From Cryobacterium sp. Y50 (GTDB lineage Bacteria > Actinomycetota > Actinomycetes > Actinomycetales > Microbacteriaceae): a stretch of DNA of 64,000 nucleotides. The position numbers and the translations under genes were made by a program. Where the stretch lies: positions 124,001 to 188,000 of the forward strand of contig NZ_PJJM01000105.1 in assembly GCF_002929805.1 (NCBI RefSeq), read 5' to 3'. Below the pieces are notes generated by a model. The model searched no databases and had not been told where the DNA came from. It saw only the letters and a list, made by a program, of their open reading frames with translations. Shown one piece after another: positions 29,916-50,781 of this stretch; the stretch's first letter is position 1; every line of letters starts with the position of its first letter.

Positions 29916-30040
29916 GCCACCAGCCTATAAGCCGCGAAGCGGATGCTGCTGCTCGTGGTATCGAATGCGGCCCGAGCCGTGTTGCGATTGAATGGGTACG
30001 CAGTTGATAGGTACAGTCACCAATGCGCAGGAAGGTCACA

Positions 30041-31042
30041 ATGACGGAGTTGCAGATTGGCTATGCGGCCATGTTGGAGCAGTTCGCACCGGCCGAGGCG
30101 GTCGCTCTTTCGGCCTACGCCGAGGAGCACGGCTTCACCGGCGTGATGGCGGCCGACCACTTTCAACCGTGGGTTCCGGCCCAGGGCCAGTCGAGTTTCG
30201 TCTGGAGCGTGCTTGCCTCGATCGCCGAGCGCACCACGGGTGACTTCGGCCCCGGCGTGACCGCGCCGACCTTTCGCTGGCACCCGGCCATGGTCGCCCA
30301 GGCCTCCGCAACGCTTGCTTCGATGTATCCCGGCCGGCACTGGCTGGGCCTGGGTTCGGGTGAAGCCCTGAACGAGCACATCGTCGGCGGCTACTGGCCC
30401 GAAGCTCCCGAACGCATCAACCGCATGTTCGAGGCCATCGAAATCATCTCGAAGCTGTTCACCGGCTCGATCGCCGGTAAGGACGTCAAGCATTCCGGCC
30501 AGTTCTTCAAGCTCGAGTCAACCCGGTTATGGACCATGCCCGAGATCGCTCCGGAGATTCTGGTTGCCACCGCCGGACCGGTCACCGCTAAGCGCGCCGG
30601 TCGCCTGGCCGATGGCCTCATCACGGTCGGCGCTCCGCTGGAGAAGATCTCAATGCTGTTCGGCAAGTTCGATGACGGTGCCCGCGAGGCCGGCAAGGAC
30701 CCTTCGGCGATGCCCAAGGTGCTGCAGCTGCACATGAGCTGGGCCGAAACCGACGAAGAGGCCAGGACCAACGCGCTGCACGAGTGGCCGAACGGTGGCA
30801 TGAAGTTTCCGAAGGGGGACATTCGTTCACCGTTCGAGTTCGAGCAGATGGCCAAGCTGGTGCGCCCCGAAGATTTCGAGGGCCGCATGATCATCTCGGC
30901 CGACCCCGACGAACACCGCAAGTACATTCAGAAGTTCGTCGACCTCGGCTTCGATCGCATCTACCTGCACAACGTGGGCCGCAATCAGAAGCAGTGGATC
31001 GACGTCTTCGGTGCATCCGTTCTGCCGAAGCTCGTTCGGTAG
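30041..31042 (+). CDS. LLM-class F420-dependent oxidoreductase, glucose-6-phosphate dehydrogenase-like
   Basis: A 333-residue TIM-barrel oxidoreductase related to F420-dependent glucose-6-phosphate dehydrogenase. Family segments include LSAYAEEHGFTGVMAADHFQ, WSVLASIAERT, GLGSGEALNEHIVG and DPDEHRKYIQKFVDLGFDRI. F420 enzymes of this group reduce F420 or use F420H2. The start at 30041 follows AGGAAGG by 6 bp; an ATG 18 bp earlier is weaker. The stop touches the ATG of cofE, so this enzyme and the last step of F420 synthesis are co-expressed. Confidence 0.9.
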   Translation: MTELQIGYAAMLEQFAPAEAVALSAYAEEHGFTGVMAADHFQPWVPAQGQSSFVWSVLASIAERTTGDFGPGVTAPTFRWHPAMVAQASATLASMYPGRHWLGLGSGEALNEHIVGGYWPEAPERINRMFEAIEIISKLFTGSIAGKDVKHSGQFFKLESTRLWTMPEIAPEILVATAGPVTAKRAGRLADGLITVGAPLEKISMLFGKFDDGAREAGKDPSAMPKVLQLHMSWAETDEEARTNALHEWPNGGMKFPKGDIRSPFEFEQMAKLVRPEDFEGRMIISADPDEHRKYIQKFVDLGFDRIYLHNVGRNQKQWIDVFGASVLPKLVR

Positions 31043-31888
31043 ATGACGTACGATTCCCGGCCCGACGCCGCGGCCGCTGAAGTGGGCGCTATGGAGCTAT
31101 TCGGCCTCAAGGTGTTCACCCTCGGTGGTTTTGGCGAGATTCAGGCTGGCGACGACCTCGCCGACCTGATCGCCGAGGCCGCACAGTCGCGCCTGATAGA
31201 CGGCGATATTCTGGTCGTGACCAGCAAAATCGTCTCCAAAGCCGAAGGACGTTTCGCCCGCGCCGCCGATCGGGAACAAGCGATCACCGACGAGACCGTG
31301 CGCATCGTGGCGTCGCGGGCGTACCCCGGCGGCCTCACCCGCATCGTCGAGAACCGGCAGGGCCTGGTCATGGCGGCGGCCGGCGTCGACACCAGCAATG
31401 CGCCCGACGGGGTGGTGCTGTTGCTGCCGGTTGATCCGGATAAGTCGGCGCGTGCCATCTGCGCGGCCCTGCGCGAACGCACCGGACTGCGGCTCGGCGT
31501 GCTCGTGACCGACACCGCCGGACGCCCGTGGCGGGAAGGCCAGACCGACATTGCCATTGGTGCGGCCGGGCTCGCGGTACTCGATGACCTGCGCGGCACA
31601 ACGGATGCCTCCGGTCGCCGCCTCGACGTCACCGTCGCGGCGGTCGCCGACGAGATCGCCGGCGCCGCCGACCTGGTCCAAGGCAAGACCAGCGGCAACC
31701 CGGTCGCTGTGATCCGCGGTCTCGGTCGACTGGTCGGAGAAATGGATGTCGCCGGTGCGCGGGCGCTGCAACGGCCGAGCGACACCGACATGTTTCGACT
31801 CGGCACGGCTGAGGCCCGCGCCGAAGGGTACGCGGAGGGTTTCGCGGCCGGGCGCGCCGCCGGCGGTGCGACGGGTTCGGCCAGCTGA
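31043..31888 (+). CDS. cofE: Coenzyme F420-0:L-glutamate ligase
   Basis: A 281-residue single-domain CofE, which adds gamma-linked glutamates to F420-0 using GTP. Family segments are [17 protein letters not shown], the [22 protein letters not shown] region that includes the conserved GVDTSN, and [20 protein letters not shown]. Mycobacterial FbiB carries an extra C-terminal nitroreductase-like domain; it is absent here, replaced by an Ala/Gly-rich tail of about 30 residues. It directly follows the F420-dependent dehydrogenase gene. A 232-bp stretch after it shows nothing clear. Confidence 0.92.
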
Positions 31889-32120
31889 GCTTCGCGGGGC
31901 GGGCCGGGCAGTGCGCGGCCGTTTCCTGCAGGCGCTGTCGTGACCGGCTCGCGCGCCTGGCTTGTCAGCCGCGCGAGCAACAGCGAGGTGCTGGCGCAGC
32001 ACATGGCAGCGCGACCCGTGCCGTCCGCCAGCCGGAGCCGGGCGTGTCTGCAGCAATTGGTCCCGCCATCCACTCTGCTGGAAACCGGGCCTGCCGGACG
32101 CGCCTCGCAGGCGAAGAATC

Positions 32121-32522: not shown

Positions 32523-32654
32523 GGGACCTCCTGGGCCGTTCCAACGAACGTAGTCGGGTCGATGGATGTATCTACTCGACCCTTGAGGCTACCGCGCCGG
32601 GTGGTCCCTGGAGCGTGCTCGCCAGAGAGGGAAAGCGCTGGTAACGTAATCCCT

Positions 32655-32891
32655 ATGGAAGTAACTCTCGATGCCGTCGGCCGGCTCATGGTCCCCAAGG
32701 CCCTGCGCGATGCACTGGGACTCCACCCCGGGTCAACCGTGGATATTTCTCAATACGGTAGTGGGCTGCAGGTTCTGCCAGCGGGACGGACAGCCCGACT
32801 CGTCGACGAAGCCGGGGTGCTGGTGGCTGCGTCCTCGACTCCCATCGACGATGACATCGTCTTTGGCCTGATCGATGCCGGACGCCGTTGA
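32655..32891 (+). CDS. AbrB/MazE-type antitoxin of a VapBC-like pair
   Basis: A 78-residue protein with a swapped-hairpin AbrB fold at the N-terminus ([22 protein letters not shown] followed by [17 protein letters not shown]) and a short toxin-binding tail. It should bind its own promoter and neutralise the PIN-domain toxin encoded next, whose TTG start overlaps its TGA. ATG 32655 is the likely start; no strong ribosome site is seen. Confidence 0.88.
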
Positions 32892-33304
32892 AGACGCTCG
32901 TCGCACTCGATACCAGCGTCGCGATTCCCCTGCTCGTAACGAGCCACCGGGCGCACCGAGCGGTTGTCGACTGGTGGCAGGGACGTGAGGTGGCGCTTGC
33001 CGGGCACGCGCTGGCTGAGACCTATTCGGTGCTCACGCGGTTGCCCGGTGACGCACGGCTTGACCCCGAATCGGCGTCCCGACTCTTGGCGACGCGGTTT
33101 GTGACACCGGTCCTGATGTCCGCTGAAACGGCACGTCGGTTGCCGACAGTCCTCGCAGACCTGGGTCTTGCCGGTGGTGCTGTCTACGATGCATTAGTGG
33201 CCCTCGCGGCACAGGAGAATGACTGTGTTCTCGCCACCCGAGATGCTCGTGCCAAAGCGACCTATGATGCCATTGGCGTTCGGCTTGAAGTCGTTGGCCG
33301 CTAA
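32888..33304 (+). CDS. PIN-domain ribonuclease toxin (VapC family)
   Basis: A 138-residue PIN-domain protein. The acidic residues that bind Mg2+ are visible in [12 protein letters not shown] (first Asp), [14 protein letters not shown] (Glu), [14 protein letters not shown] (Asp) and VLATRDARA (Asp). VapC toxins cut tRNA or rRNA. It is translationally coupled to the AbrB-type antitoxin. The cofC gene starts within or just after its 3' end, so toxin-antitoxin and F420 genes share a transcript. Confidence 0.9.
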
Positions 33305-33308
33305 CTCG

Positions 33309-33950
33309 TTGGCCGCCGGCTGGGTCGTCGTGGTGCCGGTCAAAGGAAGCTCGGGCGCCAAGAGCCGGCTCGGGAACATGCCGGAGCGGGCGGCGCTCGC
33401 CGACACGATCGCTCTCGACACGGTGACGGCGCTACTCGCAGCATCCGCCGTGGACCGCGTGTTCGTGGTGACCGGCAGCGGGCGCCTCGGTATTCGCCTC
33501 GCTGCCCTCGGGGCGGTGATCGTGCCGGAAACGGTGGCCAACACCACGGGGCACGACCGGCTAAACGCCGCGATCGAGCAGGGCATCGCCGCGGCCCGGC
33601 TCGTTTGCCCGGATGCGAACCTAGCCGTGATGACCGGGGACCTGCCCGCCCTGCGATTGGCCGATGTCGACACCGTGTTCGGGCTCGCCGCGGCACATCT
33701 GCGCTCGATGGTGCCGGACGCCGAAGGCATTGGCACGACGACTCTGTTGGCCCGAGCGGGCGTCATGTTGGTGCCCCGGTTCGGCCTGGACTCCCGCGCC
33801 GCGCACGAGAAGGCCGGCCACGTGGTGCTCGATCTACCGTCGCGCTCATCGATTCGGCGCGACGTGGATACCGCCGCCGACCTCGACGTGGCACGCGCGC
33901 TCGGGCTCGGGCCGAACACGAGCGTGCTGCTCGATAGTGTTCAGCACTGA
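33309..33950 (+). CDS. cofC: 2-phospho-L-lactate guanylyltransferase (or phosphoenolpyruvate guanylyltransferase)
   Basis: A protein of about 213 residues that activates 2-phospholactate or phosphoenolpyruvate with GTP for F420 synthesis. Family segments are the N-terminal WVVVVPVKGSSGAKSRLG, TGHDRLNAAIEQGI, AVMTGDLPALRLADVD, GTTTLLA and SRAAHEKAGHVVLD, all typical of CofC. The start is uncertain. TTG 33309 fits the family length, TTG 33294 is equally possible, and the frame is open from 33219 inside vapC. No clear ribosome site precedes either. It converges on cofD with a 3-bp gap. Confidence 0.9.
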   Translation: MAAGWVVVVPVKGSSGAKSRLGNMPERAALADTIALDTVTALLAASAVDRVFVVTGSGRLGIRLAALGAVIVPETVANTTGHDRLNAAIEQGIAAARLVCPDANLAVMTGDLPALRLADVDTVFGLAAAHLRSMVPDAEGIGTTTLLARAGVMLVPRFGLDSRAAHEKAGHVVLDLPSRSSIRRDVDTAADLDVARALGLGPNTSVLLDSVQH

Positions 33951-33953
33951 AGT

Positions 33954-34943
33954 TTAGTTAGCGGCAACCAGACGCAGCGCGGCGCCGGCCAGCGCGGTCG
34001 TGGTGGGCAGGTCGGTCATCCACAGTGGCACCGCAGCTGAGCGGATGCCGGCGGCCGCCAGCGCGGGCAGCGCCGTGGCATCCGTTTCATCGATCAGCCA
34101 GCCATCGAGTATCCCGCCGGAATGCCGCGACCCATAGTGCAAACCCACGCCCACAGCGGTCGTCTCCACTCCAATTGTCGACAGACACGCGTCGGCCATC
34201 CCACGCACCGCCACGCCGCCGATGATCGGGGACACCCCGACCACTTGGGCGGCCGTGGAGCGCAGGGCGTCGCGCACGCCAGGCACCGCCAGAATCGTGC
34301 CGACCGACACAACCGGATTCGACGGCGGAAGCACAACGAAGTCGGCCGTGTTGATGGCTTTGAGTACACCCGGAGCGGCGACCGCGTCGGTGAGTCCGCG
34401 CTGGATGAATCCGCTCACGGCTACCCGAGCGCGGTACCGAACCCACCATTCCTCAAAGTGAATATAATCGCCACTAGCATGTTCGTCAATATTCTCCGCG
34501 AGGCATACGTGAGTTTCGACCGGCTGATCGCTCATCGGCAACAGCCGCACCCCCGGCTGCCAGCGGCGGCAGAGAAACTCGGTCGCCTCCGACAGGGTAG
34601 AGCCATTTCGCAGCAGATCGGTTCGTACGATGTGCGTGGCGAGGTCGAGGTCCCCGAGTGTAAACCACGACCAGCCGCGACCATAGGCGGCGATCTCGGC
34701 TGAGGTCCGGCGGGTTTCAGCGGGTCGGCCCCAGCCCTGCTCCTCGTTGATACCACCGCCCAGCGTGTACATGATTGTGTCGAGGTCGGGGCAGATCCGC
34801 AGCCCGTCGAGCCACAGGTCGTCGCCGGTGTTCACGATCACAGTGACCGCCGTATCGGGTGCTGCAACGGCGAGGTGCGCCAGCAGCCCCCGGGTGAAGC
34901 GGGCGCCTCCGACCCCTCCGGCCAGGACAGTGACATTTCTCAT
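33954..34943 (-). CDS. cofD: 2-phospho-L-lactate transferase
   Basis: A 329-residue CofD/FbiA, which joins the phospholactyl (or enolpyruvyl) group from CofC's product onto FO to give F420-0 or its dehydro form. Family motifs are the N-terminal VTVLAGGVGGARFTRGL, VIVNTGDDLWLDGLRICPDL, TLGGGINEEQGWGR, WFTLGDLDLATHIVRT and VLPPSNPVVSVGTIL. Its start overlaps the stop of the importer ATPase by 4 bp, making it the last gene of the uptake operon. That arrangement is the strongest hint that the importer supplies CofD's substrate. Confidence 0.94.
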   Translation of the reverse strand: MRNVTVLAGGVGGARFTRGLLAHLAVAAPDTAVTVIVNTGDDLWLDGLRICPDLDTIMYTLGGGINEEQGWGRPAETRRTSAEIAAYGRGWSWFTLGDLDLATHIVRTDLLRNGSTLSEATEFLCRRWQPGVRLLPMSDQPVETHVCLAENIDEHASGDYIHFEEWWVRYRARVAVSGFIQRGLTDAVAAPGVLKAINTADFVVLPPSNPVVSVGTILAVPGVRDALRSTAAQVVGVSPIIGGVAVRGMADACLSTIGVETTAVGVGLHYGSRHSGGILDGWLIDETDATALPALAAAGIRSAAVPLWMTDLPTTTALAGAALRLVAAN

Positions 34944-35728
34944 ATGTTTCCCTTCGATGTGGGGGCCGAGTAGACGATAACCGGATGCCCTCCGCGTGGA
35001 TGCGCCAGAATGAAACAGTCCACCCCATAGACGGCTCCGATAATTTCGGGGGTCAGCACCTCGGCGGGCGTGCCAGCGGCGACCAGTCGACCCGCGTCGA
35101 GCAGCAGAATGTGGTCACAGTACGCGGCGGCGAGGTTGAGGTCGTGCAGCGCCATGATCGCCGTCAATTGCAGGTCGCGCACCTGAGCAAGCAGCGACAG
35201 CTGGGCGCTTACATCGAGGTGGTTGGTTGGTTCGTCGAGTAGCAACAGGCTCGGTTGCTGCGCCATCGCCCGGGCAATTTGCACGCGCTGCTGCTGCCCG
35301 CCACTGAGGGTCTGCCAGGATCGGTCGGTGAGTGATGCCGCGCCGACCGAGGCGAGGGCTCTCAGGGCGACAGCGCGGTCATCCCCGGCGGCGAACGAGC
35401 CGAGCAGTCGGCTGCGATGCGGAATACGCCCGAGCAGCACTACCTCGAGCACGGTGAGTTCCACACTCGGCGACGCGTTCTGTTCGAGCAGGGCGATGCG
35501 GCGGGCCGCTTCGCGGCGCGGTAGGGATCCAACCGTGACGCCGTCGAGGTCGACGGTGCCTCCAGCCGCTTGTTCGATGCCAGCCACGAGGCGCAGCAGC
35601 GTGGATTTTCCGGCACCGTTCGGCCCGAGCAGCCCGGTCACGCTGCCGGTGGGCATCGACGCGGAGATGTCGCGCAAAATCATGCTGCCGTCGATGCCGA
35701 ACGACAGACCGTTCAGGTCTACGCCCAC
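34940..35728 (-). CDS. ABC transporter ATP-binding protein, putative F420-precursor importer
   Basis: A 262-residue ATPase of the FecE/BtuD type. Walker A is GPNGAGKST (35-43), the signature is LSGGQQQRVQIARAM, Walker B is LLLLDEPTNHLD. The sequence and setting match the actinobacterial three-gene cassette described in protein-family collections as a probable F420-0 importer. It overlaps the permease upstream by 10 bp and cofD downstream by 4 bp. Confidence 0.9.
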   Translation of the reverse strand: MGVDLNGLSFGIDGSMILRDISASMPTGSVTGLLGPNGAGKSTLLRLVAGIEQAAGGTVDLDGVTVGSLPRREAARRIALLEQNASPSVELTVLEVVLLGRIPHRSRLLGSFAAGDDRAVALRALASVGAASLTDRSWQTLSGGQQQRVQIARAMAQQPSLLLLDEPTNHLDVSAQLSLLAQVRDLQLTAIMALHDLNLAAAYCDHILLLDAGRLVAAGTPAEVLTPEIIGAVYGVDCFILAHPRGGHPVIVYSAPTSKGNI

Positions 35729-36744
35729 AAATGCGATTTCTTTCTCTTGATCAGCAAAATAAACACCGGCACGCCGATGAAGGCTGTGATGATGCCGACC
35801 GGAAGCTCGCGCGGATCGAACACCGTGCGAGCGAGCGTGTCGGCGATGACCAAAAACAGCGCGCCGCAGACGGCGACGAGCGGCAGCAGCCGGCGATGGC
35901 CCGGCCCGCTGATGCCGCGCACGAGGTGCGGCAGAATGAGTCCGACGAACCCGATCGATCCACTGACGGCCACCATGGCTCCGGTCAACAGCGCGACCGC
36001 ACCGAGCAGCGCCCAGCGGGTGCGGTTGACATTGATACCGAGGCTCGCCGCCGAGGTATCACCGAAGGCGAATGCGTCAAGCCGGGTCGCCGACAAAAGG
36101 ATGCCGGTGCCGACGACCGCCACGGCCGTCGCCGCGATCGCGACGCTCTCCCAGGTGGCGCCGGCCACCGAGCCGAGCAGCCAGTTGAGAATCTCCCGGT
36201 AGGAGTCGCCCTTGGCCGCCCAGAAAATGATGAACGAGGTCAGGGCGCCGGCGAGTTGGGCGATGGCCAGCCCGGCGAGCACAGCCCGCACCGGGGTGAT
36301 TGTTCCGCCGACCTTGGCGATGCTGAGCGTCGCCACGAGGGCCAGCAATGCCCCGGCAAACGCTGCAACCGGCAGGGCGAAGCCGATGCTGAGAATGACC
36401 ACGCAGACCGCGCCGACGGATGCCCCGCTCGAGAGTCCGAGCAGGTACGGGTCGGCGAGGGGGTTACGCGTCACGCTCTGCATCACCGCGCCGCTGATGG
36501 CGAGGCCGGCGCCGACCAGCGCGGCCGTGAGTACCCGTGGCAGTCGCAGTTGCCAGACGATCGAGTCGACCAGCAAAGGCACCGGCTCGGTCGCGAGGCC
36601 GAGGTGCGCGCCGATACTGCCGGCCACCTGCGCCAGGCTGACTGCGGCTGGCCCGATGGTCACCGCTACCCCGCACACGACGACGAGGGCAACCGCCGCG
36701 GCCACGAGCCAGGCGAGGTACCTGCTCCGGGTCACGAACCCCAC
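35719..36744 (-). CDS. ABC transporter permease (FecCD family), putative F420-precursor importer
   Basis: A 341-residue permease with about nine to ten helices. FecCD landmarks are LRLPRVLTAALVGAGLAISG, NPLADPYLLGLSSGASVGAV, GSIGFVGLILPHLVRGISGP and the C-terminal ELPVGIITAFIGVPVFILLI. It forms the channel for a cobalamin/siderophore-type importer. GTG 36744 is used as the start but lacks a strong ribosome site; the gene begins only about 30 bp after the binding-protein stop. Confidence 0.88.
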   Translation of the reverse strand: MGFVTRSRYLAWLVAAAVALVVVCGVAVTIGPAAVSLAQVAGSIGAHLGLATEPVPLLVDSIVWQLRLPRVLTAALVGAGLAISGAVMQSVTRNPLADPYLLGLSSGASVGAVCVVILSIGFALPVAAFAGALLALVATLSIAKVGGTITPVRAVLAGLAIAQLAGALTSFIIFWAAKGDSYREILNWLLGSVAGATWESVAIAATAVAVVGTGILLSATRLDAFAFGDTSAASLGINVNRTRWALLGAVALLTGAMVAVSGSIGFVGLILPHLVRGISGPGHRRLLPLVAVCGALFLVIADTLARTVFDPRELPVGIITAFIGVPVFILLIKRKKSHLWA

Positions 36745-36775
36745 CGAACGGGACGCGAGAGCGGCCAGGAGCGGC

Positions 36776-37762
36776 TCACTCGAAGCTGGAGAGTTGGGCG
36801 ATGGCGGAAGAGGCAGCCTCGACGTTGCGCGGGCCGGCCTCGGTCGCCGCGAACGGCAAAATGACGTAGCGCTGGTTTTTCACGGCGTCGAGCACCTGAG
36901 TGGCCGGGTCGGATTCCAGGTGGGCGATCTTGGCCGCCGCGGTGTTCCACGTGGCGTCAACGAGCACGATGACGCTCGGGTTGGCCTCGATGATCGATTC
37001 CCAGCCGACCGAGGTCCAGGTGTCGACCACGTCAGCAAAGATATTGCTGAGCCCGGCGGCCTCCATAATTATGGCCGGCGAGCCGATGCCCGCGCCAACG
37101 TAGGGGGTGGTCGTGCCGCTCGAGTACCAGACTGCGGTGGTCCCCGCCGAGGCCGGTTCGAGCGCGGCGAGCTCGGTCTCCAGGGTGCTGACCAGATCGG
37201 CGGCGGCATCCGCTGCCCCGAAGAGCTCACCGGCCTCGGTGATTTCGGTGAACACGGTCTCGAAGGTGAGCGGGCTGGGCATGGCGTCGCCCTTGCAGGC
37301 GGCCGGCGAGACGTAGCTTCCGATGCCGAGTTCGGCGAGACCGGCCCGTTCGCCCACGCCGTCGGCGGTGAAGTTGGACTCCCACCCGCCGTAGATGAAG
37401 TCGGGGTTCAGACCGAGCACGGCCTCCCGCCCGGGCAGAAAGTCGCTGATCACGTTGAGGTCGGCGCCTTCGGCGGCGAGTGAATCGGGCAGCGGGCCGT
37501 CGAGAAAGGCCGATCCGACAATGCGGTCGCCGAGCCCGAGGGCGAGCAACAGTTCGGTCGCCGAGGACTTGATCGACACGATGCGTTCCGGCGCGGCCGC
37601 GACGGTCAGGCTCGTGCCGCAGTTGTCGACGGTGACCGGGTAGTTCGCACTGGCGGCTGGAGTCTCGGTGGGTGAGACGGCGGGGGTGGCCGTGGCGGCG
37701 CATCCGCTCAAAAACAGGGCCCCGGCGGCAAGAGCGGCGGCGCGCGCGGTAATTCGAAACAT
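36776..37762 (-). CDS. ABC transporter substrate-binding lipoprotein, putative F420-precursor importer
   Basis: A 328-residue lipoprotein of the FecB/BtuF fold. The signal peptide ends in a lipobox with C21 (LFLSGC). The first lobe begins at ERIVSIKSSATELLLALGLG, a long interdomain helix follows (about residues 185-205), and the second lobe contains VGWESIIEANPSVIVLVDA. GAAAGAGA lies upstream of ATG 37762. This is the first gene of an operon with the permease, the ATPase and cofD. The ligand is inferred to be FO or F420-0 from gene context, not from residues. Confidence 0.88.
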   Translation of the reverse strand: MFRITARAAALAAGALFLSGCAATATPAVSPTETPAASANYPVTVDNCGTSLTVAAAPERIVSIKSSATELLLALGLGDRIVGSAFLDGPLPDSLAAEGADLNVISDFLPGREAVLGLNPDFIYGGWESNFTADGVGERAGLAELGIGSYVSPAACKGDAMPSPLTFETVFTEITEAGELFGAADAAADLVSTLETELAALEPASAGTTAVWYSSGTTTPYVGAGIGSPAIIMEAAGLSNIFADVVDTWTSVGWESIIEANPSVIVLVDATWNTAAAKIAHLESDPATQVLDAVKNQRYVILPFAATEAGPRNVEAASSAIAQLSSFE

Positions 37763-37923: not shown

Positions 37924-39288
37924 CTACGCCCAGCGCGCACCGATCGGGTGTACGGCCGAATCAGACGGATGCGCCGCCGCGGCCAGCGCTTCGGCTACCG
38001 GTCGCACGTCATCGGGCAGGGCGCCGGCGGTCACCCGAATGAACGCGGGACCGCCCTTGGTCGCCAGGAACGGCGAGCCGCCGGCCACCCGAATGCCCGA
38101 GGCGGCGAGGCGTACCAGGGCATCGCGCTCGTTCTGCACCGGCAGCCAGGTGTTGATGCCGTCGGCTTGCCTGACGTTGAGTCCGAACTCGCGGAGCGCC
38201 TCGGAGAGGGCGCGTTGCCGCGCAAAGTAGATGTGACGGGCCTCGCTGACCCGCGCCAGGCTGTCGCCGGTGGTGAGCAGGTCGTGCAGAATAGTCTGCA
38301 GCATGCGACTGGTCCAGCCGGGGCCGAGTAGGCGCCGCGACACAATCGGTTCGATGAGCGCAGCGGGACCGCCCAGCGCGGCCATGCGCAGGTCGGGGCC
38401 GTGCGTCTTCGAGAAGCTGCGCACGTGCAGGGTGCGCTCGGGCAGCCACCGGCCGAGACTCACATCGGGCGCGATGCTGATATCCGCCGAGTGATCGTCC
38501 TCGATCACGATGGTCTTCGACGCGGCGCCCGCGCGCAACAGCCCGGCTAGCTGCTCGGCACGCTTGAGGCTCATCGACGTCCCGGTCGGGTTGTGGGCGC
38601 GCGGCTGCAGAATGACAGCGACCGGGCCGAGCTTGAGCGCTGCGGCAAAATCGGCGGGAACCAGGCCGTGCTGATCGACGGCCACCGGCAGGCGTTCGAG
38701 GCCGAGCTGGTCGAGCAGGTCGAAGAACGGCGGAAACGATGGGTTCTCCACGATGACCCGGTCGCCGAACCGGGTCACTGCGTCGAGGCTGCGCGAAATG
38801 GCGTCGAGAGCGCCGTCCACGATGGTGATCGTCTCCACCGGGTACGGCCATGAAGCCTGCAGCACCTCGAGGAGCTCCGGAATGATCGGCAGGTCGTGAT
38901 AGCTCGGGGTAACCGCGCGCTGTGCAACCCGGGAGAGCGCAGGTCCCAGCGGCGGCAACAACCGCGGGTCTGGCGTACCGCGGGAGAGGTCGAGCCGGGC
39001 GGGGCCAACCGCGCCGATCATGGACTGGCTGCGAGCCGGCAACCAGTTGGGCGCTTTGTCCTGCACGAAAGTGCCGCCGCGGCCGCGCGACACGATCAGC
39101 CCGACCGCCGCGAGCGCCTGCCAGGCGTGGCTGACGGTCGCGGGGCTCACACCGAGCTCGCCGGCCAGCACCCGCACGGTGGGCAGGCGGTCGCCCGGTG
39201 TGAGGCGCCCAGAGGTGATCAGCCGCCCAATGGCAGCGGCGATCCCCGCGGGGGTGCGTTGCTCAATTTCGTCGATAAAGTTCTGCAT
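37924..39288 (-). CDS. MocR-type regulator (GntR helix-turn-helix fused to aminotransferase domain)
   Basis: A 454-residue PLP-dependent transcription factor. The N-terminal winged helix is at about 10-75 (IGRLITSGRLTPGDRLPTVR, then LAGELGVSPATVSHAWQAL). The rest is an aminotransferase class I-like domain in which K294 of RSFSKTHGPDLR is the predicted PLP lysine and VIEDDHSADI holds the Asp. MocR proteins usually sense an amino compound as an aldimine. It is divergent from the pyrimidine catabolism operon, which yields beta-alanine, a plausible effector. Confidence 0.92.
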   Translation of the reverse strand: MQNFIDEIEQRTPAGIAAAIGRLITSGRLTPGDRLPTVRVLAGELGVSPATVSHAWQALAAVGLIVSRGRGGTFVQDKAPNWLPARSQSMIGAVGPARLDLSRGTPDPRLLPPLGPALSRVAQRAVTPSYHDLPIIPELLEVLQASWPYPVETITIVDGALDAISRSLDAVTRFGDRVIVENPSFPPFFDLLDQLGLERLPVAVDQHGLVPADFAAALKLGPVAVILQPRAHNPTGTSMSLKRAEQLAGLLRAGAASKTIVIEDDHSADISIAPDVSLGRWLPERTLHVRSFSKTHGPDLRMAALGGPAALIEPIVSRRLLGPGWTSRMLQTILHDLLTTGDSLARVSEARHIYFARQRALSEALREFGLNVRQADGINTWLPVQNERDALVRLAASGIRVAGGSPFLATKGGPAFIRVTAGALPDDVRPVAEALAAAAHPSDSAVHPIGARWA

Positions 39289-39440: not shown

Positions 39441-40316
39441 ATGAGTAACGGCACCACCTCCGATACCAGGAACATTGTTCGTACGGCTATCACTCAGGCC
39501 ACCTGGACCGGCGACGAAGAATCGATGATTCAAAAGCACGAGGGCTTCGTGCGTACCGCGGCCGCTCAGGGCGTGCAGGTGATCTGCTTTCAGGAACTCT
39601 TTCACGGTCCCTACTTCGGCATCGTGCAAGACGCCAAGTATTACGACTACGCCCAGCCCGTGCCCGGCCCCATTGTTGAGCGGTTTCAAAAGCTCGCCGC
39701 CGAGTACAACATGGTCATCGTCGTGCCGATGTACGAAGAAGAACAGCCCGGCGTGCTCTACAACACCGCAGTGGTCATCGACGCCGACGGAACCTATCTC
39801 GGCAAGTACCGCAAGCACCACATCCCGCACCTGCCGCAGTTCTGGGAGAAGTTCTACTTTCGCCCGGGCAACACTGACTACCCGGTTTTTGACACCAAGT
39901 ACGGCAAGATCGGCGTCTACATTTGCTACGACCGCCATTTTCCCGAGGGTTGGCGAGTACTCGGCCTAAACGGCGCCGAGATCGTGTTCAATCCCTCGGC
40001 GACCAAGCCGGGGCTGTCCAACCGCCTGTGGGAGCTCGAGCAGCCAGCTGCCGCGGTCGCCAACCAATACTACGTCGGCGCGAACAACCGTATCGGCAAT
40101 GAGAAGTCCGAATTCGGCGACGAGGCCGTGACGTTCTACGGAAGCTCTTACTTCGTTGACCCCAAGGGCAACTACGTGGGCGAGCGAGCCTCGACCGACA
40201 CCGAGGAGATCGTCGTGCGCGACCTCGACCTCGGCGTCATTCGCGAGGTGCGCAACTCCTGGCAGTTCTACCGCGACCGTCGCCCCGACTCGTATGAGGC
40301 CCTCGTCGCTCCTTGA
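39441..40316 (+). CDS. Beta-ureidopropionase-like nitrilase-superfamily amidohydrolase
   Basis: A 291-residue C-N hydrolase. The catalytic triad is complete: E52 in ICFQELFHGPYFG, K125 in GKYRKHHIPHLP and C162 in GVYICYDRHFPEGW. The tyrosine-rich surroundings and EQPAAAVANQYYVGANNRIG match N-carbamoyl-beta-alanine amidohydrolases, which release beta-alanine (or beta-aminoisobutyrate), CO2 and ammonia. It is the first gene of the pyrimidine catabolism operon, and the next gene encodes the enzyme that makes its substrate. Confidence 0.92.
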   Translation: MSNGTTSDTRNIVRTAITQATWTGDEESMIQKHEGFVRTAAAQGVQVICFQELFHGPYFGIVQDAKYYDYAQPVPGPIVERFQKLAAEYNMVIVVPMYEEEQPGVLYNTAVVIDADGTYLGKYRKHHIPHLPQFWEKFYFRPGNTDYPVFDTKYGKIGVYICYDRHFPEGWRVLGLNGAEIVFNPSATKPGLSNRLWELEQPAAAVANQYYVGANNRIGNEKSEFGDEAVTFYGSSYFVDPKGNYVGERASTDTEEIVVRDLDLGVIREVRNSWQFYRDRRPDSYEALVAP

Positions 40317-40327
40317 AGCGCATAGAA

Positions 40328-40362
40328 CGGATGCTGCCGACCGACCCGGTCGGCGGCATCCG
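40328..40362. terminator. Strong intergenic hairpin with CGGATGC arms
   Basis: Arms CGGATGCTGCCGACCG and CGGTCGGCGGCATCCG flank an ACC loop, giving a 16-bp stem with one G-U wobble. It lies between the first two genes of the pyrimidine operon and has no T-run. It may be an attenuator or an mRNA processing or stability element that sets different levels for the two genes. Confidence 0.5.
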
Positions 40363-40395
40363 CTGGCCCTGACACTTTTGAGCGAAGAGGATGCC

Positions 40396-41829
40396 ATGAA
40401 GACTTTGATCAAGAACGGCACCGTGGTCAATGCCACGGGCCGAGGAGTCGCCGATGTGCTCATCGACGGGGAGCAAATCGCTGCCGTGCTCGCGCCCGGC
40501 TCGAACCTGCTCGGCTTCGATGTCGCGGGCAATGTCGACCGCATCATCGACGCCAGCGGCAAATACGTCATCCCCGGCGGTATCGACGCCCACACCCACA
40601 TGGAGATGCCGTTCGGTGGCACCCAGGCCAGCGACACCTTCGAAACCGGAACCCGTGCTGCTGCCTGGGGCGGAACGACGAGCATCGTCGACTTCGTCGT
40701 GCAGTACACCGGCGAGGACGTGCTCGAGCGCTACGCCGCCTGGCAGCAGAAGGCTGCCGGCCAGTGCGCCATCGACTACGGCTTTCACCAGATCCTCAGT
40801 GACGTGCAAGACAGCTCACTGACCGCAATGGACGAACTCGTCAACGAGGGCGTCTCGAGTTTCAAACTGTTCATGGCCTACAAGGGCGTGTTCCTCAGTG
40901 ATGACGGTCAGATCGTCAAAGCCATGCAGCGCGCGGCCACGAACGGCAGCATGATCATGATGCACGCCGAGAACGGCAGTGTCATCGACCTGCTCGTGCA
41001 GCAGGCGGTCGCCGCCGGTAACACCAGCCCGCTGTACCACGGCCTCACCCGGCCCTGGCAGGCCGAAGAAGAGGCCACCCATCGGGCGATCATGCTCGCC
41101 AACCTCACCGGCGCTCCTCTCTATATAGTGCACGTTTCAGCTAAACAGGCCGTGGACCAGATTGCCGAAGCTCGGCACAACGGGCAGAACGTGTTCGGCG
41201 AGACCTGCCCGCAGTACCTCTACCTCTCCCTCGAAGACAATCTCGGCGCTCCGGGTTTTGAGGGGGCCAAGTGGGTGTGCTCGACGCCGCTGCGCGCCAG
41301 GGTCGAGGGTCATCAGCATCACATGTGGCAGAGCCTGCGCACGAACGACATCCAGATGGTCTCCACCGACCACTGCCCGTTTTGCATGAAAGGGCAGAAG
41401 GACATGGGCCTGACCGACTTCTCCAAGATTCCCAACGGCATCGGCTCGGTCGAGCACCGGATGGACCTGCTGTATCAGGGCGTCGTTGACGGCAAGATTT
41501 CCCTCGAACGCTGGGTCGAGGTCTGCTCCACCACCCCGGCGCGCATGTTCGGCATGTACGGCCAGAAGGGCGTGATCGCGCCCGGCGCCGACGGCGACGT
41601 CGTCATCTACGACCCGAACGGGCACACGTCGATCGGGATGCCTGAAACGGGAAGGGTGAAGACCCATCACATGAACATGGACTACTCCGCCTGGGAGGGC
41701 TACGAGATCGACGGCCACGTCGACACCGTCATCTCCCGCGGCAAGGTCGTCATCGACGGCTTCGCCTACCTGGGCACCAAGGGTGATGGCCGCTACATCA
41801 AGCGCGGCCTGAGCCAGTACCTGATCTAA
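40396..41829 (+). CDS. hydA: Dihydropyrimidinase (D-hydantoinase)
   Basis: A 477-residue cyclic amidase that opens dihydrouracil or dihydrothymine to N-carbamoyl-beta-amino acids. Metal-site residues are H66 and H68 in DAHTHMEMPFGG, the lysine expected to be carboxylated K157 in SSFKLFMAYKG, and His in MMHAENGSVID and IVHVSAKQAVDQI. STDHCPFCMKGQK carries the last Asp. Length and order match the family. ATG 40396 follows an AAGAGG site; an ATG 5 bp earlier is out of frame. Confidence 0.95.
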   Translation: MKTLIKNGTVVNATGRGVADVLIDGEQIAAVLAPGSNLLGFDVAGNVDRIIDASGKYVIPGGIDAHTHMEMPFGGTQASDTFETGTRAAAWGGTTSIVDFVVQYTGEDVLERYAAWQQKAAGQCAIDYGFHQILSDVQDSSLTAMDELVNEGVSSFKLFMAYKGVFLSDDGQIVKAMQRAATNGSMIMMHAENGSVIDLLVQQAVAAGNTSPLYHGLTRPWQAEEEATHRAIMLANLTGAPLYIVHVSAKQAVDQIAEARHNGQNVFGETCPQYLYLSLEDNLGAPGFEGAKWVCSTPLRARVEGHQHHMWQSLRTNDIQMVSTDHCPFCMKGQKDMGLTDFSKIPNGIGSVEHRMDLLYQGVVDGKISLERWVEVCSTTPARMFGMYGQKGVIAPGADGDVVIYDPNGHTSIGMPETGRVKTHHMNMDYSAWEGYEIDGHVDTVISRGKVVIDGFAYLGTKGDGRYIKRGLSQYLI

Positions 41830-41838
41830 GGGAAAACC

Positions 41839-42855
41839 ATGGATTTCGGAGCAGTACTGCAGACCAACCCGCCGTCGGCGCGTACCGTGCAACTGGCAAA
41901 ACTGGCCGAGGCACACGGTTACAGCCACGTCTGGACTTTTGACTCACACCTGCTCTGGCAGGAACCCTATGTGATCTACAGCCGCATCCTGGCCGAGACC
42001 AGCAAGATCATCGTCGGACCCATGGTCACCAACCCGGCGACGCGCGACTGGACCGTGACGGCGTCGACCTTCGCGACCCTCAACGAGATGTTCGGGAACC
42101 GTACCATCTGCGGCATCGGCCGCGGCGACTCGGCGGTGCGCACCACCAACGGCGCCCCGACCACCCTCAAGACCCTGCACGAATCGATCCACGTCATTCG
42201 CGAGCTCGCCAACTCCCGCCCGGTCGAATACAACGGTGCCACGGTGCAGTTTCCGTGGAGCCACGGCTCGAGCCTGGAACTGTGGGTCGCCGCCTACGGT
42301 CCGCTCGCGCTCAAACTTGCCGGTGAGGTCGGCGACGGTTTCATTCTGCAAATGGCTGACCTCGATGTCGCCAAGTGGATGATCGAGAGTGTGCGCACCG
42401 CCGCCTCGAACGCCGGCCGCGACCCATTAAGGATTAAATTCTGCGTCGCCGCCCCGGCCTACATCGGCGAAGACTGGGAACACATGCGCAACCAGTGCCG
42501 CTGGTTCGGGGGCATGGTCGGCAATCACGTGGCCGACATCGTTGCCAAGTACGGCGCCGATTCCAATATCCCCACTGCTCTCACCGACTACATCAAAAAC
42601 CGTGAGGGTTACGACTACAACCAGCACGGTAAGGCGGGCAACGAGCACGCCGCTTTCGTGCCCGACGAGATCGTCGACCGGTTCTGCCTGCTCGGCACCG
42701 CGAAAGACCACCTCGAGAAGCTCGAGGCACTCAAGGAGCTCGGCGTCGACCAGTTCGCCAGCTATCTGCAGCACGACAACAAGGAAGAAACCATGCGCGT
42801 CTACGGCGAAACCCTGATTCCAGCCCTCACCGACTCCATCATGGCCACGAAGTAG
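41839..42855 (+). CDS. LLM-class F420-dependent oxidoreductase of the hydantoinase-associated type
   Basis: A 338-residue TIM-barrel oxidoreductase of the luciferase-like superfamily. It has the family pieces LAEAHGYSHVWTFDSHLLW, RTICGIGRGDSAVRTTNGAP and LELWVAAYGPLALKLAGEVGDG. I recognise it as a TIGR03842-like F420 group. It begins 9 bp after hydA and is followed by the omega-aminotransferase, so it belongs to the pyrimidine operon. No classical dihydropyrimidine dehydrogenase is present in the window; this gene is the obvious candidate for the pyrimidine-ring reduction, an inference rather than a known role. A RutA-like monooxygenase role fits less well, since ring-opening by hydA would then be redundant. 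Confidence 0.88.
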   Translation: MDFGAVLQTNPPSARTVQLAKLAEAHGYSHVWTFDSHLLWQEPYVIYSRILAETSKIIVGPMVTNPATRDWTVTASTFATLNEMFGNRTICGIGRGDSAVRTTNGAPTTLKTLHESIHVIRELANSRPVEYNGATVQFPWSHGSSLELWVAAYGPLALKLAGEVGDGFILQMADLDVAKWMIESVRTAASNAGRDPLRIKFCVAAPAYIGEDWEHMRNQCRWFGGMVGNHVADIVAKYGADSNIPTALTDYIKNREGYDYNQHGKAGNEHAAFVPDEIVDRFCLLGTAKDHLEKLEALKELGVDQFASYLQHDNKEETMRVYGETLIPALTDSIMATK

Positions 42856-42901
42856 CATTTTTCATCTCCACCACCACCGACCCAGAAAGCCAGCGATATA
42901 C

Positions 42902-44257
42902 GTGACTGACACCAGCACACACACTGTCCCTCCCGCAGCCACCGGAGGGACGCCAAGTCTCAATGCGCACACGAGCGAACTCGACCGGGCCCATGTCTTC
43001 CATTCCTGGTCGGCGCAGGCGGCGCTGAAGCCGCTCGTCATCGCCGGCGGGCTCGGCTGCCGAGTCTGGGACCACGATGGGCGCAGTTATCTCGACTTTT
43101 CGAGTCAATTGGTGAACGTGAATATCGGCCATCAGCATCCGTCGGTGGTGAAAGCCATCACCGAGCAGGCCGCTCTGCTGAGCACCATTGCACCGTCGAC
43201 GGCGAACCTGGCGCGCGGCCAAGCCGCCCAGCGCATCACCGATCGCGCCCCGGCGGGATTCAACAAGGTCTTCTTCACCAACGGGGGAGCGGATGCGAAT
43301 GAGAACGCCATGCGCATGGCCCGCCTGCACACGGGTCGTGACAAGGTGCTCTCCCTCTATAAGTCGTATCACGGCAACACCGGGGCGGCCGTGGTCGCCA
43401 CCGGCGACTGGCGCCGCATTCCGAACGAATACGCGCGTGGCCACGTGCACTTCTTCGGCCCGTTTCTCTACCGCAGCGAATTCTGGGCCAGCAGCGAAGA
43501 GGAGGAATGCGCCCGCGCGCTGCACCACCTCGAACGCGTCATCCAGGGTGAAGGCGTCTCGGCGGTTGCGGCCATTTTGCTCGAGTCGATTCCCGGAACC
43601 GCTGGAATCATGATGCCTCCGGCCGGCTACCTGCCCGGGGTGCGCGCGCTCTGCGACAAGTACGGCATCGTGCTCATCCTCGACGAGGTCATGTGTGGCT
43701 TCGGTCGCACCGGCAACTGGTTCGCCTTCGAGGCGTACGACGTCGTGCCCGACCTGATCACTTTCGCCAAGGGCGTCAATTCCGGTTACGTACCCACCGG
43801 CGGCGTGATCATCTCCGACGCCATCGCGGCGACCTTTGACGAGACGGTCTTTCCCGGCGGACTGACCTATAGCGGGCATCCGCTCGCCATGGCGTCGATC
43901 GTAGGTGCGCTCGATGCGATGAAAGCCGAGGGCATCGTCGAGAACGCCGCCCGCATCGGCCACGACGTGCTCGAGCCGGGGCTGCAGGCGCTGCAGGCCC
44001 GGCATTCGATCATCGGCGAAGTGCGCGGTGTCGGCGTGTTCTGGGTACTCGAACTCGTCGCCGACCCGCAGACTCGCGAGCCGGTGAGCGGCGCCGTCAT
44101 GGCTCGGGTCAAGGCCGAGCTGCTCGGGCGCGGCCTGCTGCCGTTTTTGGTGGAGAACCGCATCCACGTCGTGCCGCCGTGCGTCGTCACCGACGCCGAG
44201 GTCGCCGAGGCACTCGCCATCTACGACGAGGTACTCAGCCTCGACCTGCTCTCTTAA
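42902..44257 (+). CDS. Class III omega-aminotransferase (beta-alanine/beta-aminoisobutyrate type)
   Basis: A 451-residue fold-type I PLP aminotransferase. The PLP lysine is predicted at K290 in LITFAKGVNSGYVPTGG, the cofactor Asp in VLILDEVMCGFGRTG, and the phosphate-binding region in GGADANENAMRMARLHTG. It would move the amino group of beta-alanine or beta-aminoisobutyrate to pyruvate or 2-oxoglutarate, giving malonate or methylmalonate semialdehyde for the dehydrogenase encoded next. GTG 42902 start, with only a weak ribosome site. Confidence 0.92.
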   Translation: MTDTSTHTVPPAATGGTPSLNAHTSELDRAHVFHSWSAQAALKPLVIAGGLGCRVWDHDGRSYLDFSSQLVNVNIGHQHPSVVKAITEQAALLSTIAPSTANLARGQAAQRITDRAPAGFNKVFFTNGGADANENAMRMARLHTGRDKVLSLYKSYHGNTGAAVVATGDWRRIPNEYARGHVHFFGPFLYRSEFWASSEEEECARALHHLERVIQGEGVSAVAAILLESIPGTAGIMMPPAGYLPGVRALCDKYGIVLILDEVMCGFGRTGNWFAFEAYDVVPDLITFAKGVNSGYVPTGGVIISDAIAATFDETVFPGGLTYSGHPLAMASIVGALDAMKAEGIVENAARIGHDVLEPGLQALQARHSIIGEVRGVGVFWVLELVADPQTREPVSGAVMARVKAELLGRGLLPFLVENRIHVVPPCVVTDAEVAEALAIYDEVLSLDLLS

Positions 44258-44393
44258 CCCCACTCCGGTAGTCGGGTCCCCCATTGGCCTCGATCACCAA
44301 AACGCGCGTTGGTCTAGCCGGTCGAGACCGCCATGCGAAAACCGATGGCGATTTCGAAAAGCCAGCCCAGCGCATCCACTGAAAGGATCACCC

Positions 44394-45893
44394 ATGACCG
44401 ACACTCCCACCATTCAGCACTACATTGACGGCGCCGCTGCCACCGGAACCTCGACCCGTACCGCTCCCGTTTTCAACCCGGCCACCGGCAAAGTCGCCAA
44501 GAACGTGCTGCTTGCGAGCACCGCCGACCTCGACGCGGCCGTCGCCGTTGCCCAGGCGGCCTACCCCGCCTGGCGCGACCTGAGCCAGGCTCGCCGCCAG
44601 ACCATCATGTTCAACTTTCGCGAACTGCTGAACGCGCGCAAGGGCGACCTAGCCGAGATTCTCACGGCCGAACACGGCAAGGTCACCTCCGATGCGCTCG
44701 GTGAGATCGTTCGAGGCCTCGAGGTTGTCGAATTCGCGCTCGGTATGCCGCACCTTTCCAAGGGTGACTACTCCGAGAACGTCTCGACCGGCGTCGACGT
44801 GTACACGCTGCGCCAGCCGCTCGGCGTCGTCGGTATCATCAGCCCGTTCAACTTTCCGGCGATGGTGCCGCTGTGGTACTTCCCGATCGCGATCGCGGCC
44901 GGCAACACTGTTGTGCTCAAGCCGAGCGAGAAGGACCCGTCCTCGTCGAATTGGCTGGCCGAGTTGTTCACCGAAGCCGGCCTGCCCGCCGGGGTGTTCA
45001 ACGTCGTGCACGGCGACAAGGAAGCTGTCGATGCGTTACTCGTGCACCCCAACGTGCAGGCGATCTCCTTCGTAGGCTCCACCCCGATCGCTCGCTACAT
45101 CTACGAGGAGGCCGCCAAGCACGGCAAGCGCGTGCAGTCACTCGGCGGCGCCAAGAATCACATGCTCGTGCTGCCCGATGCCGACCTCGACCTGGCAGCG
45201 GATGCCGCCGTCAACGCCGGTTTCGGATCCGCCGGTGAGCGCTGCATGGCCATCAGCGTCATCGTCGCCGTTGAGCCCGTCGCCGACGAGCTCATCGCAA
45301 AGATCGCCGAACGGGTCAAGAGCCTCACCGTCGGCGACGGCATGCGCGGCTGCAACATGGGCCCGCTGATCACAAAGGTGCACCGCGACAAGGTTGCCGG
45401 GTACATCGACATTGCCCAGGCCGACGGGGCCGACGTCGTCATCGACGGGCGCGACATCACGGTGGACGGCGACCCGGACGGCTTCTGGCTCGGCCCGACA
45501 TTATTCGACAAGGTCAGTGTCGACTCGGCCGTGTACCTCGACGAGATCTTCGGACCGGTGTTGTCGATCGTGCGCGTGGCAAGCTACCAGGAAGGCCTCG
45601 ACCTCATCAACGCGAGCCAGTACGGCAACGGCACCGCGATCTTCACCAACGACGGCGGGGCCGCTCGTCGGTTCCAGAACGAGGTGCAGGTCGGCATGGT
45701 CGGCATCAACGTGCCGATTCCGGTGCCGGTCGCGTACCACTCCTTCGGTGGTTGGAAGAACTCGCTGTTCGGCGACGCGAAGGCCTACGGTCCCGCCGGT
45801 GTCAACTTCTTCACCCGCGAGAAGGCGGTAACGAGTCGGTGGCTAGACCCGAGCCACGGAGGTATCAACCTGGGTTTCCCGCAGAACCACTAG
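44394..45893 (+). CDS. mmsA: CoA-acylating methylmalonate-semialdehyde dehydrogenase
   Basis: A 499-residue aldehyde dehydrogenase of the MmsA/IolA group. The catalytic cysteine is C284 in SAGERCMAISVIVA; IISPFNFPAMVPLWYFPIAI and LKPSEKDPSSS are typical of this CoA-dependent class. It converts malonate or methylmalonate semialdehyde to acetyl-CoA or propionyl-CoA with NAD+ and CoA, releasing CO2. It ends the pyrimidine catabolism operon; a 136-bp gap before it with GAAAGGA at the start could hold a second promoter. It converges on a LysR gene. Confidence 0.94.
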   Translation: MTDTPTIQHYIDGAAATGTSTRTAPVFNPATGKVAKNVLLASTADLDAAVAVAQAAYPAWRDLSQARRQTIMFNFRELLNARKGDLAEILTAEHGKVTSDALGEIVRGLEVVEFALGMPHLSKGDYSENVSTGVDVYTLRQPLGVVGIISPFNFPAMVPLWYFPIAIAAGNTVVLKPSEKDPSSSNWLAELFTEAGLPAGVFNVVHGDKEAVDALLVHPNVQAISFVGSTPIARYIYEEAAKHGKRVQSLGGAKNHMLVLPDADLDLAADAAVNAGFGSAGERCMAISVIVAVEPVADELIAKIAERVKSLTVGDGMRGCNMGPLITKVHRDKVAGYIDIAQADGADVVIDGRDITVDGDPDGFWLGPTLFDKVSVDSAVYLDEIFGPVLSIVRVASYQEGLDLINASQYGNGTAIFTNDGGAARRFQNEVQVGMVGINVPIPVPVAYHSFGGWKNSLFGDAKAYGPAGVNFFTREKAVTSRWLDPSHGGINLGFPQNH

Positions 45894-50490: not shown

Positions 50491-50781
50491 TTCCCTTTCA
50501 GAGTAGCAAGTTGGCTGACGGGGCAGCCAATGCCAGGCGAGTCGATACCGTCGGCCAACACTCGAGAGCTACCGAAGCTGCCGGGGGGCACGTTGTTGGG
50601 CGGAATTTGGGCGATCTCGGTACTGGGATTTCGGCACTGGTTTTCTGCACAAATTGACCCAGATGGGGGGTAAATGGGCAATTCACACCATACGATCAGA
50701 ATTCGGCGTCTCGCCGAGAAATTGCTGTGCACGACGGGCTCTGCCGGCGTGACAGGGATGGGTTAGCTAATGGAGGTCGCA

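Follow-up and report, generated by a model that had tools for sequence, protein, structure and literature searches.

An operon without the usual first enzyme

Which enzyme opens the pathway in an operon that seems to encode every later step of pyrimidine breakdown and none of the usual dehydrogenases? The question is raised by a locus of the actinobacterium Cryobacterium sp. Y50, within a stretch of 64,000 nucleotides (contig NZ_PJJM01000105.1, positions 124,001 to 188,000) that we call the window and from whose first nucleotide all coordinates are counted. An earlier, sequence-only reading had pointed to a luciferase-like monooxygenase (LLM) of the F420 type, encoded among the pathway genes, as the candidate first enzyme. 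From sequence comparisons, we put at about 80% the probability that the operon serves reductive pyrimidine catabolism (Pyd) and that an F420H2-dependent LLM, and not PydA or PreAT, acts first in it. The proposed first enzyme is non-homologous to the usual one and very probably F420 dependent. The operon consists of five genes:

39441..40316, plus strand: CN-hydrolase family amidase, proposed N-carbamoyl-beta-alanine / N-carbamoyl-beta-aminoisobutyrate amidohydrolase (PydC role); PF00795, 232 bits
40396..41829, plus strand: dihydropyrimidinase (PydB); TIGR02033, 550 bits versus a cut-off of 393
41839..42855, plus strand: LLM oxidoreductase, proposed F420H2-dependent dihydropyrimidine dehydrogenase (first step); TIGR03842, 581 bits, cut-off 295.45; PF00296
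42902..44257, plus strand: class-III aminotransferase, proposed beta-alanine / beta-aminoisobutyrate aminotransferase (PydD role); NF004718 (PRK06062), 737 bits versus 472
44394..45893, plus strand: CoA-acylating (methyl)malonate-semialdehyde dehydrogenase (MMSDH); TIGR01722, 676 bits versus 448

The genes share one strand, with successive gaps of 79, 9, 46, and 136 bp. All five products named in the sequence-only reading are encoded here, with family scores over the cut-offs given, and the LLM gene does lie between the dihydropyrimidinase gene (hydA), which ends at 41829, and the aminotransferase gene, which begins at 42902. The dihydropyrimidinase open reading frame listed as 40156-41829 starts too early, homology beginning at the ATG at 40396, and its product is nearest among solved structures to the dihydropyrimidinase 3sfw (E 1.5e-144). 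The aminotransferase is nearest to a taurine:2-oxoglutarate aminotransferase (6jix, E 1e-106). The name beta-ureidopropionase for the first gene stood only in part: a CN-hydrolase gene is present, but its product is nearest in the PDB to an N-carbamoylputrescine amidohydrolase (5h8i, E 3e-59), followed by 2vhh (titled CG3027-PA, which we take to be a beta-ureidopropionase; E 5e-56) and the beta-ureidopropionase 8pt4 (E 3e-51), and we therefore treat the label as contextual. TIGR03842 itself is a hypothetical equivalog in NCBIfam, with no reaction assigned.

The host genome is a 4.40 Mb draft of 105 contigs that is 99.5% complete, and at this locus it is most closely related to Cryobacterium species. 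Its best match to the PreA family falls short of the cut-off (33.6 bits versus 335), and the one protein over the cut-off for the dihydroorotate dehydrogenase (DHODH) fold, PF01180, is the quinone-dependent PyrD. The operon LLM matches PF00296 alone, with neither the DHODH domain nor the iron-sulfur partner of a PydA or PreA. The absence of a PreA/PreT or DPYD-like enzyme, first noticed within the operon, therefore extends to the genome as far as the PreA and PF01180 profiles reach, and these profiles found no other dihydropyrimidine dehydrogenase, the discovery of which had been named as a threat to the LLM proposal.

We also considered a RutA-like route. The RutA model TIGR03612 (cut-off 498 bits) did not match the operon LLM at E 1e-3 and gave 29 bits for a second LLM of the window (30023..31042). 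The host has 11 LLM matches, seven of which we scanned one by one (two in the window and five elsewhere); none of these five (L001, L004, L006, L007, and L008; E limit 1e-25) is a RutA, and a search of the whole host genome at E 1e-100 gave no match. Since RutA was also over its cut-off in none of the 296 actinobacterial genomes described below, we ruled this route out.

TIGR03842 and dihydropyrimidinase occur together

We searched 296 Actinomycetota genomes, for which a completeness of at least 90% was requested, with six families. TIGR03842 was over its cut-off in 62 genomes, dihydropyrimidinase (TIGR02033) in 89, and a control F420-LLM family, TIGR03619, in 119, while PreA was over its cut-off in only two, both of them without TIGR03842 over cut-off. 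CofD, an F420 synthesis enzyme, matched in 170 genomes at E 1e-10 and exceeded its cut-off in 163. Dihydropyrimidinase was found in 61 of the 62 genomes with TIGR03842 versus 28 of the 234 others (61 genomes with both, 1 with TIGR03842 alone, 28 with dihydropyrimidinase alone, and 206 with neither), an odds ratio of 449 (Fisher p 4e-40) that is uncorrected for phylogeny. Because relatedness inflates this figure, we stratified by family, using the family-labelled genomes listed in the TIGR03842 search from the 14 families that hold TIGR03842 (101 genomes), and the link persisted (chi2 25.6, p 4e-7). The control family showed an odds ratio of 3.6 with dihydropyrimidinase (Fisher p 1e-6) and a stratified p of 0.44; nine of the 14 families entered this control, the other five having no variation in dihydropyrimidinase and contributing nothing. 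TIGR03842 appears to be the common first enzyme of the pathway in Actinomycetota.

We read the neighborhoods of all 28 genomes with dihydropyrimidinase alone and scanned them with a chosen set of pathway queries. Another pathway gene was matched in five (G196, G155, G290, G202, and G266), some of them weakly, and none was found among the queries in the remaining 23 stretches, several of which are on short contigs; two of these 23 (G083 and G179) hold a distant LLM (26-27% identity). In G196 (L223, from 8337) we found a PreT-PreA-M20-hydA operon, the sole PreA/PreT case among the 28 neighborhoods, in one of the two genomes with PreA over cut-off among the 296. G196 is a positive control, since in it PreAT keeps company with the same later genes that accompany TIGR03842 elsewhere.

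A constant LLM among changing partners

At the closest-relative loci (the best 80 of at least 592, 79-95% identical and mostly from Microbacteriaceae), dihydropyrimidinase lies directly upstream of the LLM on the same strand in 80/80, with a median of 27 bp between matches, and 79 of the loci also have a CN-hydrolase on that strand, again upstream. The comparison of gene neighborhoods across relatives, which the sequence-only reading had proposed as a check, thus found the dihydropyrimidinase-LLM order kept throughout. A gene for an NMT1/THI5-type substrate-binding protein occurs with ABC permeases and an ATPase in 55 of the 80 loci; in most relatives this four-gene transporter sits between the LLM and the aminotransferase, and it is missing from that position in the window (42856-42901), in L011, L017, and L021, and in some others. 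CofD and an F420 transporter permease were each found in 35 of the 80. These 80 loci are those of close relatives, and we draw the divergent evidence from the 62-genome actinobacterial set.

That evidence comes from 60 stretches (9.9-19.5 kb) of 59 of the 62 genomes, the window genome and two genomes with very short contigs being left out. Dihydropyrimidinase is present in 47 of the stretches, an NCS1 permease in 28, and an NMT1-type binding protein in 18. A CN-hydrolase occurs in 33 and an M20 carbamoylase in 22, never both together, and five stretches have neither. Two amidase types that are not homologous thus replace one another around a constant TIGR03842 LLM, and so do two non-homologous transporters. 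Escherichia coli PreA and PreT queries (tblastn, E 1e-15) matched none of the 60 stretches and none of 143 when the closest-relative and plasmid loci were included.

One arrangement bears on the substrate. In family f18 (L146), the order is Fgd-like LLM, dihydropyrimidinase, aminotransferase, M20 carbamoylase, NCS1 permease, TIGR03842, and cytosine deaminase. The cytosine deaminase scores 568 bits (cut-off 483), relatives of its gene occur in 3/60 stretches, and its place next to the LLM points to a pyrimidine as substrate.

Several genomes have TIGR03842 open frames of about 820 amino acids, which raised the possibility of an LLM-dihydropyrimidinase fusion. In 70 of 101 adjacent pairs the two genes do not share a frame, and in each of the other 31 a stop separates them; we ruled a fusion out and took the long frames for an effect of high G+C content.

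It is also conceivable that the operon degrades some other cyclic ureide, such as hydantoins or a dihydropyrimidine-like heterocycle, with the LLM as the reductase or isomerase of that compound. The dihydropyrimidinase family is also named D-hydantoinase, the CN-hydrolase and the aminotransferase are not diagnostic, and M20 carbamoylases and NCS1 permeases are common to hydantoin pathways as well. However, MMSDH and an omega-type aminotransferase match the breakdown of beta-alanine and beta-aminoisobutyrate and not that of alpha-amino acids, and the company of cytosine deaminase in L146 and of PreT-PreA beside M20-hydA in G196 also speaks for pyrimidines. We consider a different ureide unlikely.

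F420 as the probable cofactor

We sampled the spread of TIGR03842 beyond Actinomycetota through plasmid records, and found it in those of Leisingera and Paracoccus alcaliphilus, at 42-44% identity. On the L. aquaemixtae plasmid (L190), one arm reads NCS1 symporter-hydA-Zn-dependent hydrolase-aminotransferase-pntBA (names as annotated), and the divergent arm carries cofG-cofH-cofD-cofC-cofE-npdG and then TIGR03842. P. alcaliphilus (L189) has cofG-cofH-cofD-cofC-cofE-npdG-TIGR03842 followed by an ABC transporter. By gene order, these clusters tie the TIGR03842 enzyme to F420, and the presence of pntAB and npdG suggests that electrons pass from NADPH to F420H2 and on to the LLM. The putative swap of the first enzyme is found again across many actinobacteria and in certain proteobacteria. 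TIGR03842 is likely to be an independently evolved entry to the pathway, an F420H2-dependent dihydropyrimidine dehydrogenase that would prevail in Actinomycetota and would be the apparent client of the whole F420 operon in Leisingera and Paracoccus.

The predicted structure is consistent with this assignment. An AlphaFold2 model of the LLM (41839-42855), built from 26 sequences, had a pLDDT of 80.8 and a pTM of 0.84. VIA-align placed Mer (F420-dependent methylene-tetrahydromethanopterin reductase) closest to the model, then Adf, FGD2, and FGD1, and rows 1-15 of the 50 listed, which also include other FGD entries, were all F420 enzymes. With Foldseek, rows 1-12 were Mer, FGD2, and Adf, with flavin mononucleotide (FMN) enzymes next and FGD1 from rank 27. 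The modeled LLM barrel is therefore closest to F420-dependent members. The likeness to Mer (1z69) amounts to a Z of 33.6 and a root mean square deviation of 2.8 over 312 aligned residues, and Mer is also the best PDB match by sequence (E 3e-31).

For conservation, we assembled 140 distinct stop-free sequences that align over 300 or more residues at 38% identity or better (identities observed went down to 42%), dropping shorter or more distant ones such as L191 (34%). Asp35, Ser36, Trp40, Val63, Arg69, Arg95, Ser98, Tyr153, Gln171, Trp222, Phe223, Asn229, Tyr258, Asp259, Tyr260, and His263 are invariant in 140/140, and Asp97 varies once. The available sections of a study of Mer place its cis-peptide, which forms the backstop, between Gly61 and Val62, and have its Asp96 contact the pyrimidine ring of the pterin (PMC11094777). 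The cis-peptide positions fall in our LLM on Met62, which is not conserved, and on the invariant Val63; in the sequence alignment, Mer Asp96 and residue 178 (Asn in the printed sequence, Gln in PMC11094777, as far as the available sections go) correspond to Asp97 and Gln171. Asp97 and Gln171 may bind the pyrimidine by its NH-CO edge and so keep it against the deazaflavin, and residues 217-264, a conserved block that the family has of its own and Mer does not (RxQxRWF..NH, YDY..HG), may form the rest of the substrate pocket; because the pocket loops are poorly modeled, both are offered as suggestions only.

Membership in the Mer family itself was ruled out. The catalytic Glu6 of Mer is replaced by Val6 in the LLM (Val in 113, Thr in 24, and Cys in 3 of the 140 sequences), and two Mer models scored 126 and 133 bits versus cut-offs of 349 and 276.

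Alternatively, the LLM could be the first enzyme and yet work with FMN and NAD(P)H. FMN is the cofactor of many LLMs, three of the 62 TIGR03842 genomes are without a CofD match, and the window genome is without CofH. Set against this are the CofD matches in the other 59 genomes (the three exceptions being drafts of 190 to 370 contigs), the place of the TIGR03842 gene right after cofGHDCE-npdG in Leisingera and Paracoccus, the rank of F420 enzymes before FMN ones among the nearest structures, and the invariance of Val63, in the place of Val62 of the Mer backstop. An FMN enzyme is, in our estimation, quite improbable.

A possible supply of F420H2 and a proposed route

The genes between 30023 and the operon fall into an F420 block and a regulator:

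30023..31042, plus strand: second LLM, F420 glucose-6-phosphate dehydrogenase family, candidate F420-reducing partner; TIGR03557, 280 bits versus 210
31043..31888, plus strand: CofE, F420-0:L-glutamate ligase; TIGR01916, 240 bits versus 181
33219..33950, plus strand: CofC, 2-phospho-L-lactate guanylyltransferase (F420 synthesis); TIGR03552, 118 bits versus 105
33954..34943, minus strand: CofD, 2-phospho-L-lactate transferase (F420 synthesis); TIGR01819, 337 bits versus 257
34940..37762, minus strand: three-gene "F420-0" ABC transporter (substrate-binding protein, permease, ATPase); TIGR03868, 416 bits, and TIGR03869, 469 bits, both over cut-off
37924..39288, minus strand: MocR-like regulator (GntR and aminotransferase domains), divergent from the operon, candidate regulator; PF00392 and PF00155

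The third family of the "F420-0" transporter, TIGR03873, stays below its cut-off (343 bits versus 372), as does TIGR03885 for the second LLM (315 bits versus 399). The F420 block had been described as immediately upstream of the operon; it is upstream, at 30023-37762, but the MocR gene intervenes. A match to this regulator also lies just upstream of the CN-hydrolase in 51 of the 80 closest-relative loci. CofH, which makes the first F420 biosynthetic step, has no match in the host genome. Because CofC, CofD, CofE, and the transporter are present without it, the gene set indicates that the host probably builds F420 solely from imported Fo, and the "F420-0" transporter would better be read as an Fo importer. 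Elsewhere in the window, 50770-52524 encodes a leucine-rich-repeat, adhesin-like surface protein whose LAVTG sorting motif match is below the cut-off.

The Fgd-like LLM that adjoins CofE may supply F420H2 to the pathway, since a gene 58-61% identical to it is present in 6/60 TIGR03842 stretches of the actinobacterial set. In the route we propose, F420H2 would perhaps be regenerated by this enzyme here, or by NADPH:F420 reductase in Leisingera and Paracoccus. C5 of the deazaflavin would then donate a hydride to C6 of the pyrimidine (uracil or thymine), whose C5 would be protonated, giving dihydrouracil or dihydrothymine. Dihydropyrimidinase would open the dihydropyrimidine ring, the CN-hydrolase step would remove CO2 and ammonia, the aminotransferase would yield malonate or methylmalonate semialdehyde, and MMSDH would convert these to acetyl- or propionyl-CoA.

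The LLM might also act later or in reverse, for instance by oxidizing an intermediate with F420 and so supplying F420H2 to other enzymes; several LLMs, FGD and Adf among them, are indeed F420-reducing dehydrogenases. Yet the other operon genes cover the later steps and leave uracil reduction as the remaining redox step, and npdG and pntAB in the Leisingera cluster fit the reduction of F420 for a consumer, which makes this explanation very improbable.

Weighing the evidence

That the LLM is a chance neighbor, and that an undetected enzyme elsewhere reduces pyrimidines, is scarcely credible: the genome is a draft of 105 contigs, but it is 99.5% complete without a PreA, the gene order is kept in all 80 closest relatives, and the co-occurrence holds within families.

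As sequence evidence goes, the candidacy of the LLM as first enzyme is supported by its 61/62 co-occurrence with dihydropyrimidinase, the within-family link and the silence of the control, its retention while its partners are swapped, the Leisingera cluster, and G196. Several observations weigh on the other side. The converse link is weaker, as the 28 genomes with dihydropyrimidinase and no TIGR03842 attest. One of them, G266, is an unexplained exception: a CN-hydrolase-dihydropyrimidinase pair is followed by the sugar-nucleotide genes rmlA and rmlB (L222, 7017-11487), with no LLM and no PreA found in the stretch. G194 has TIGR03842 without dihydropyrimidinase over cut-off (1/62), and the three genomes without a CofD match count here too. 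Dihydropyrimidinase is missing from 13 of the 60 stretches, in some because the contig ends; it lies about 12, 13, 16, and 50 kb off in G031, G274, G279, and G044 and on another contig in G059. No hydA was found in the 29 kb read from P. alcaliphilus (L189). The CN-hydrolase and aminotransferase sequences are too unspecific to fix the substrate, the active-site loops of the model (residues 36-39 and 97-103) are its least certain part, with a pLDDT below 50, and the glycine of the Mer cis-peptide is replaced by Met62 (M/F/C/L in the 140 sequences). Finally, the available text on SSGG-03002, a putative enzyme discussed below, reports no product in vitro and failed enzyme assays (PMC10714638).

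Relation to known systems

PydA and PreT-PreA share the proposed reaction and the operon place of TIGR03842, PreT-PreA standing beside M20-hydA in G196. They are DHODH-type FMN/iron-sulfur enzymes that use NAD(P)H or ferredoxin, whereas the LLM is an unrelated single-domain barrel for which we propose F420. The electron donor of PydA itself varies and includes, in the accessible portion of one report, a ferredoxin-dependent PydAc (PMC7332683). RutA shares the LLM fold and acts on uracil (6sgl, Z 24.0 to our model), but it is a ring-cleaving FMN monooxygenase with 12-13% identity to the LLM in structural alignments.

Two published proposals come nearer. In uric-acid clusters of Chloroflexota, a putative F420-dependent LLM was proposed in 2025, from bioinformatics, for the reductive step (PMC12507026, as its available sections describe); this is likewise a reductive nucleobase step, and it differs in substrate, phylum, and cluster. 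NpsU / SSGG-03002, a putative F420/FMN oxidoreductase, is genetically needed for the reduction of the uracil C5-C6 bond in mureidomycins, according to the accessible text of PMC10714638. There it acts in biosynthesis, on the uracil moiety of a uridyl-peptide antibiotic. Among the papers listed in searches of the open-licence PMC literature (subscription papers and preprints lie outside it), we found no F420-dependent dihydropyrimidine dehydrogenase of TIGR03842 proposed or tested, and in that literature neither TIGR03842 by name nor "F420" together with "pyrimidine catabolism". As far as that literature reaches, the idea is near published proposals, yet unclaimed for pyrimidine catabolism.

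A separate observation concerns one of the two distant LLMs mentioned above. In G083 (L212, 8108-13582), a dihydropyrimidinase-like gene lies with a Mer-like, non-TIGR03842 LLM (105 bits) and genes of the ornithine carbamoyltransferase (OTCase) family, one of them YgeW-like, an arrangement that looks like an F420 counterpart of the reductive uric-acid cluster described in Chloroflexota.

Implications

According to the available sections of a 2021 review of F420, bacteria other than Actinobacteria had yet to yield an experimentally studied F420H2-dependent reductase, and experiments are needed to establish what F420 does in them (PMC8498797). The Leisingera and Paracoccus clusters make such a role directly testable. 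Should it also accept 5-fluorouracil, the enzyme would interest biocatalysis as a dihydropyrimidine dehydrogenase made of a single protein and free of iron-sulfur clusters. If our reading of the operon is true, it would supply the first step that pyrimidine catabolism lacks across an entire phylum, the curated and uncharacterised family TIGR03842 would gain a function, and F420 would have a core role in nitrogen salvage.

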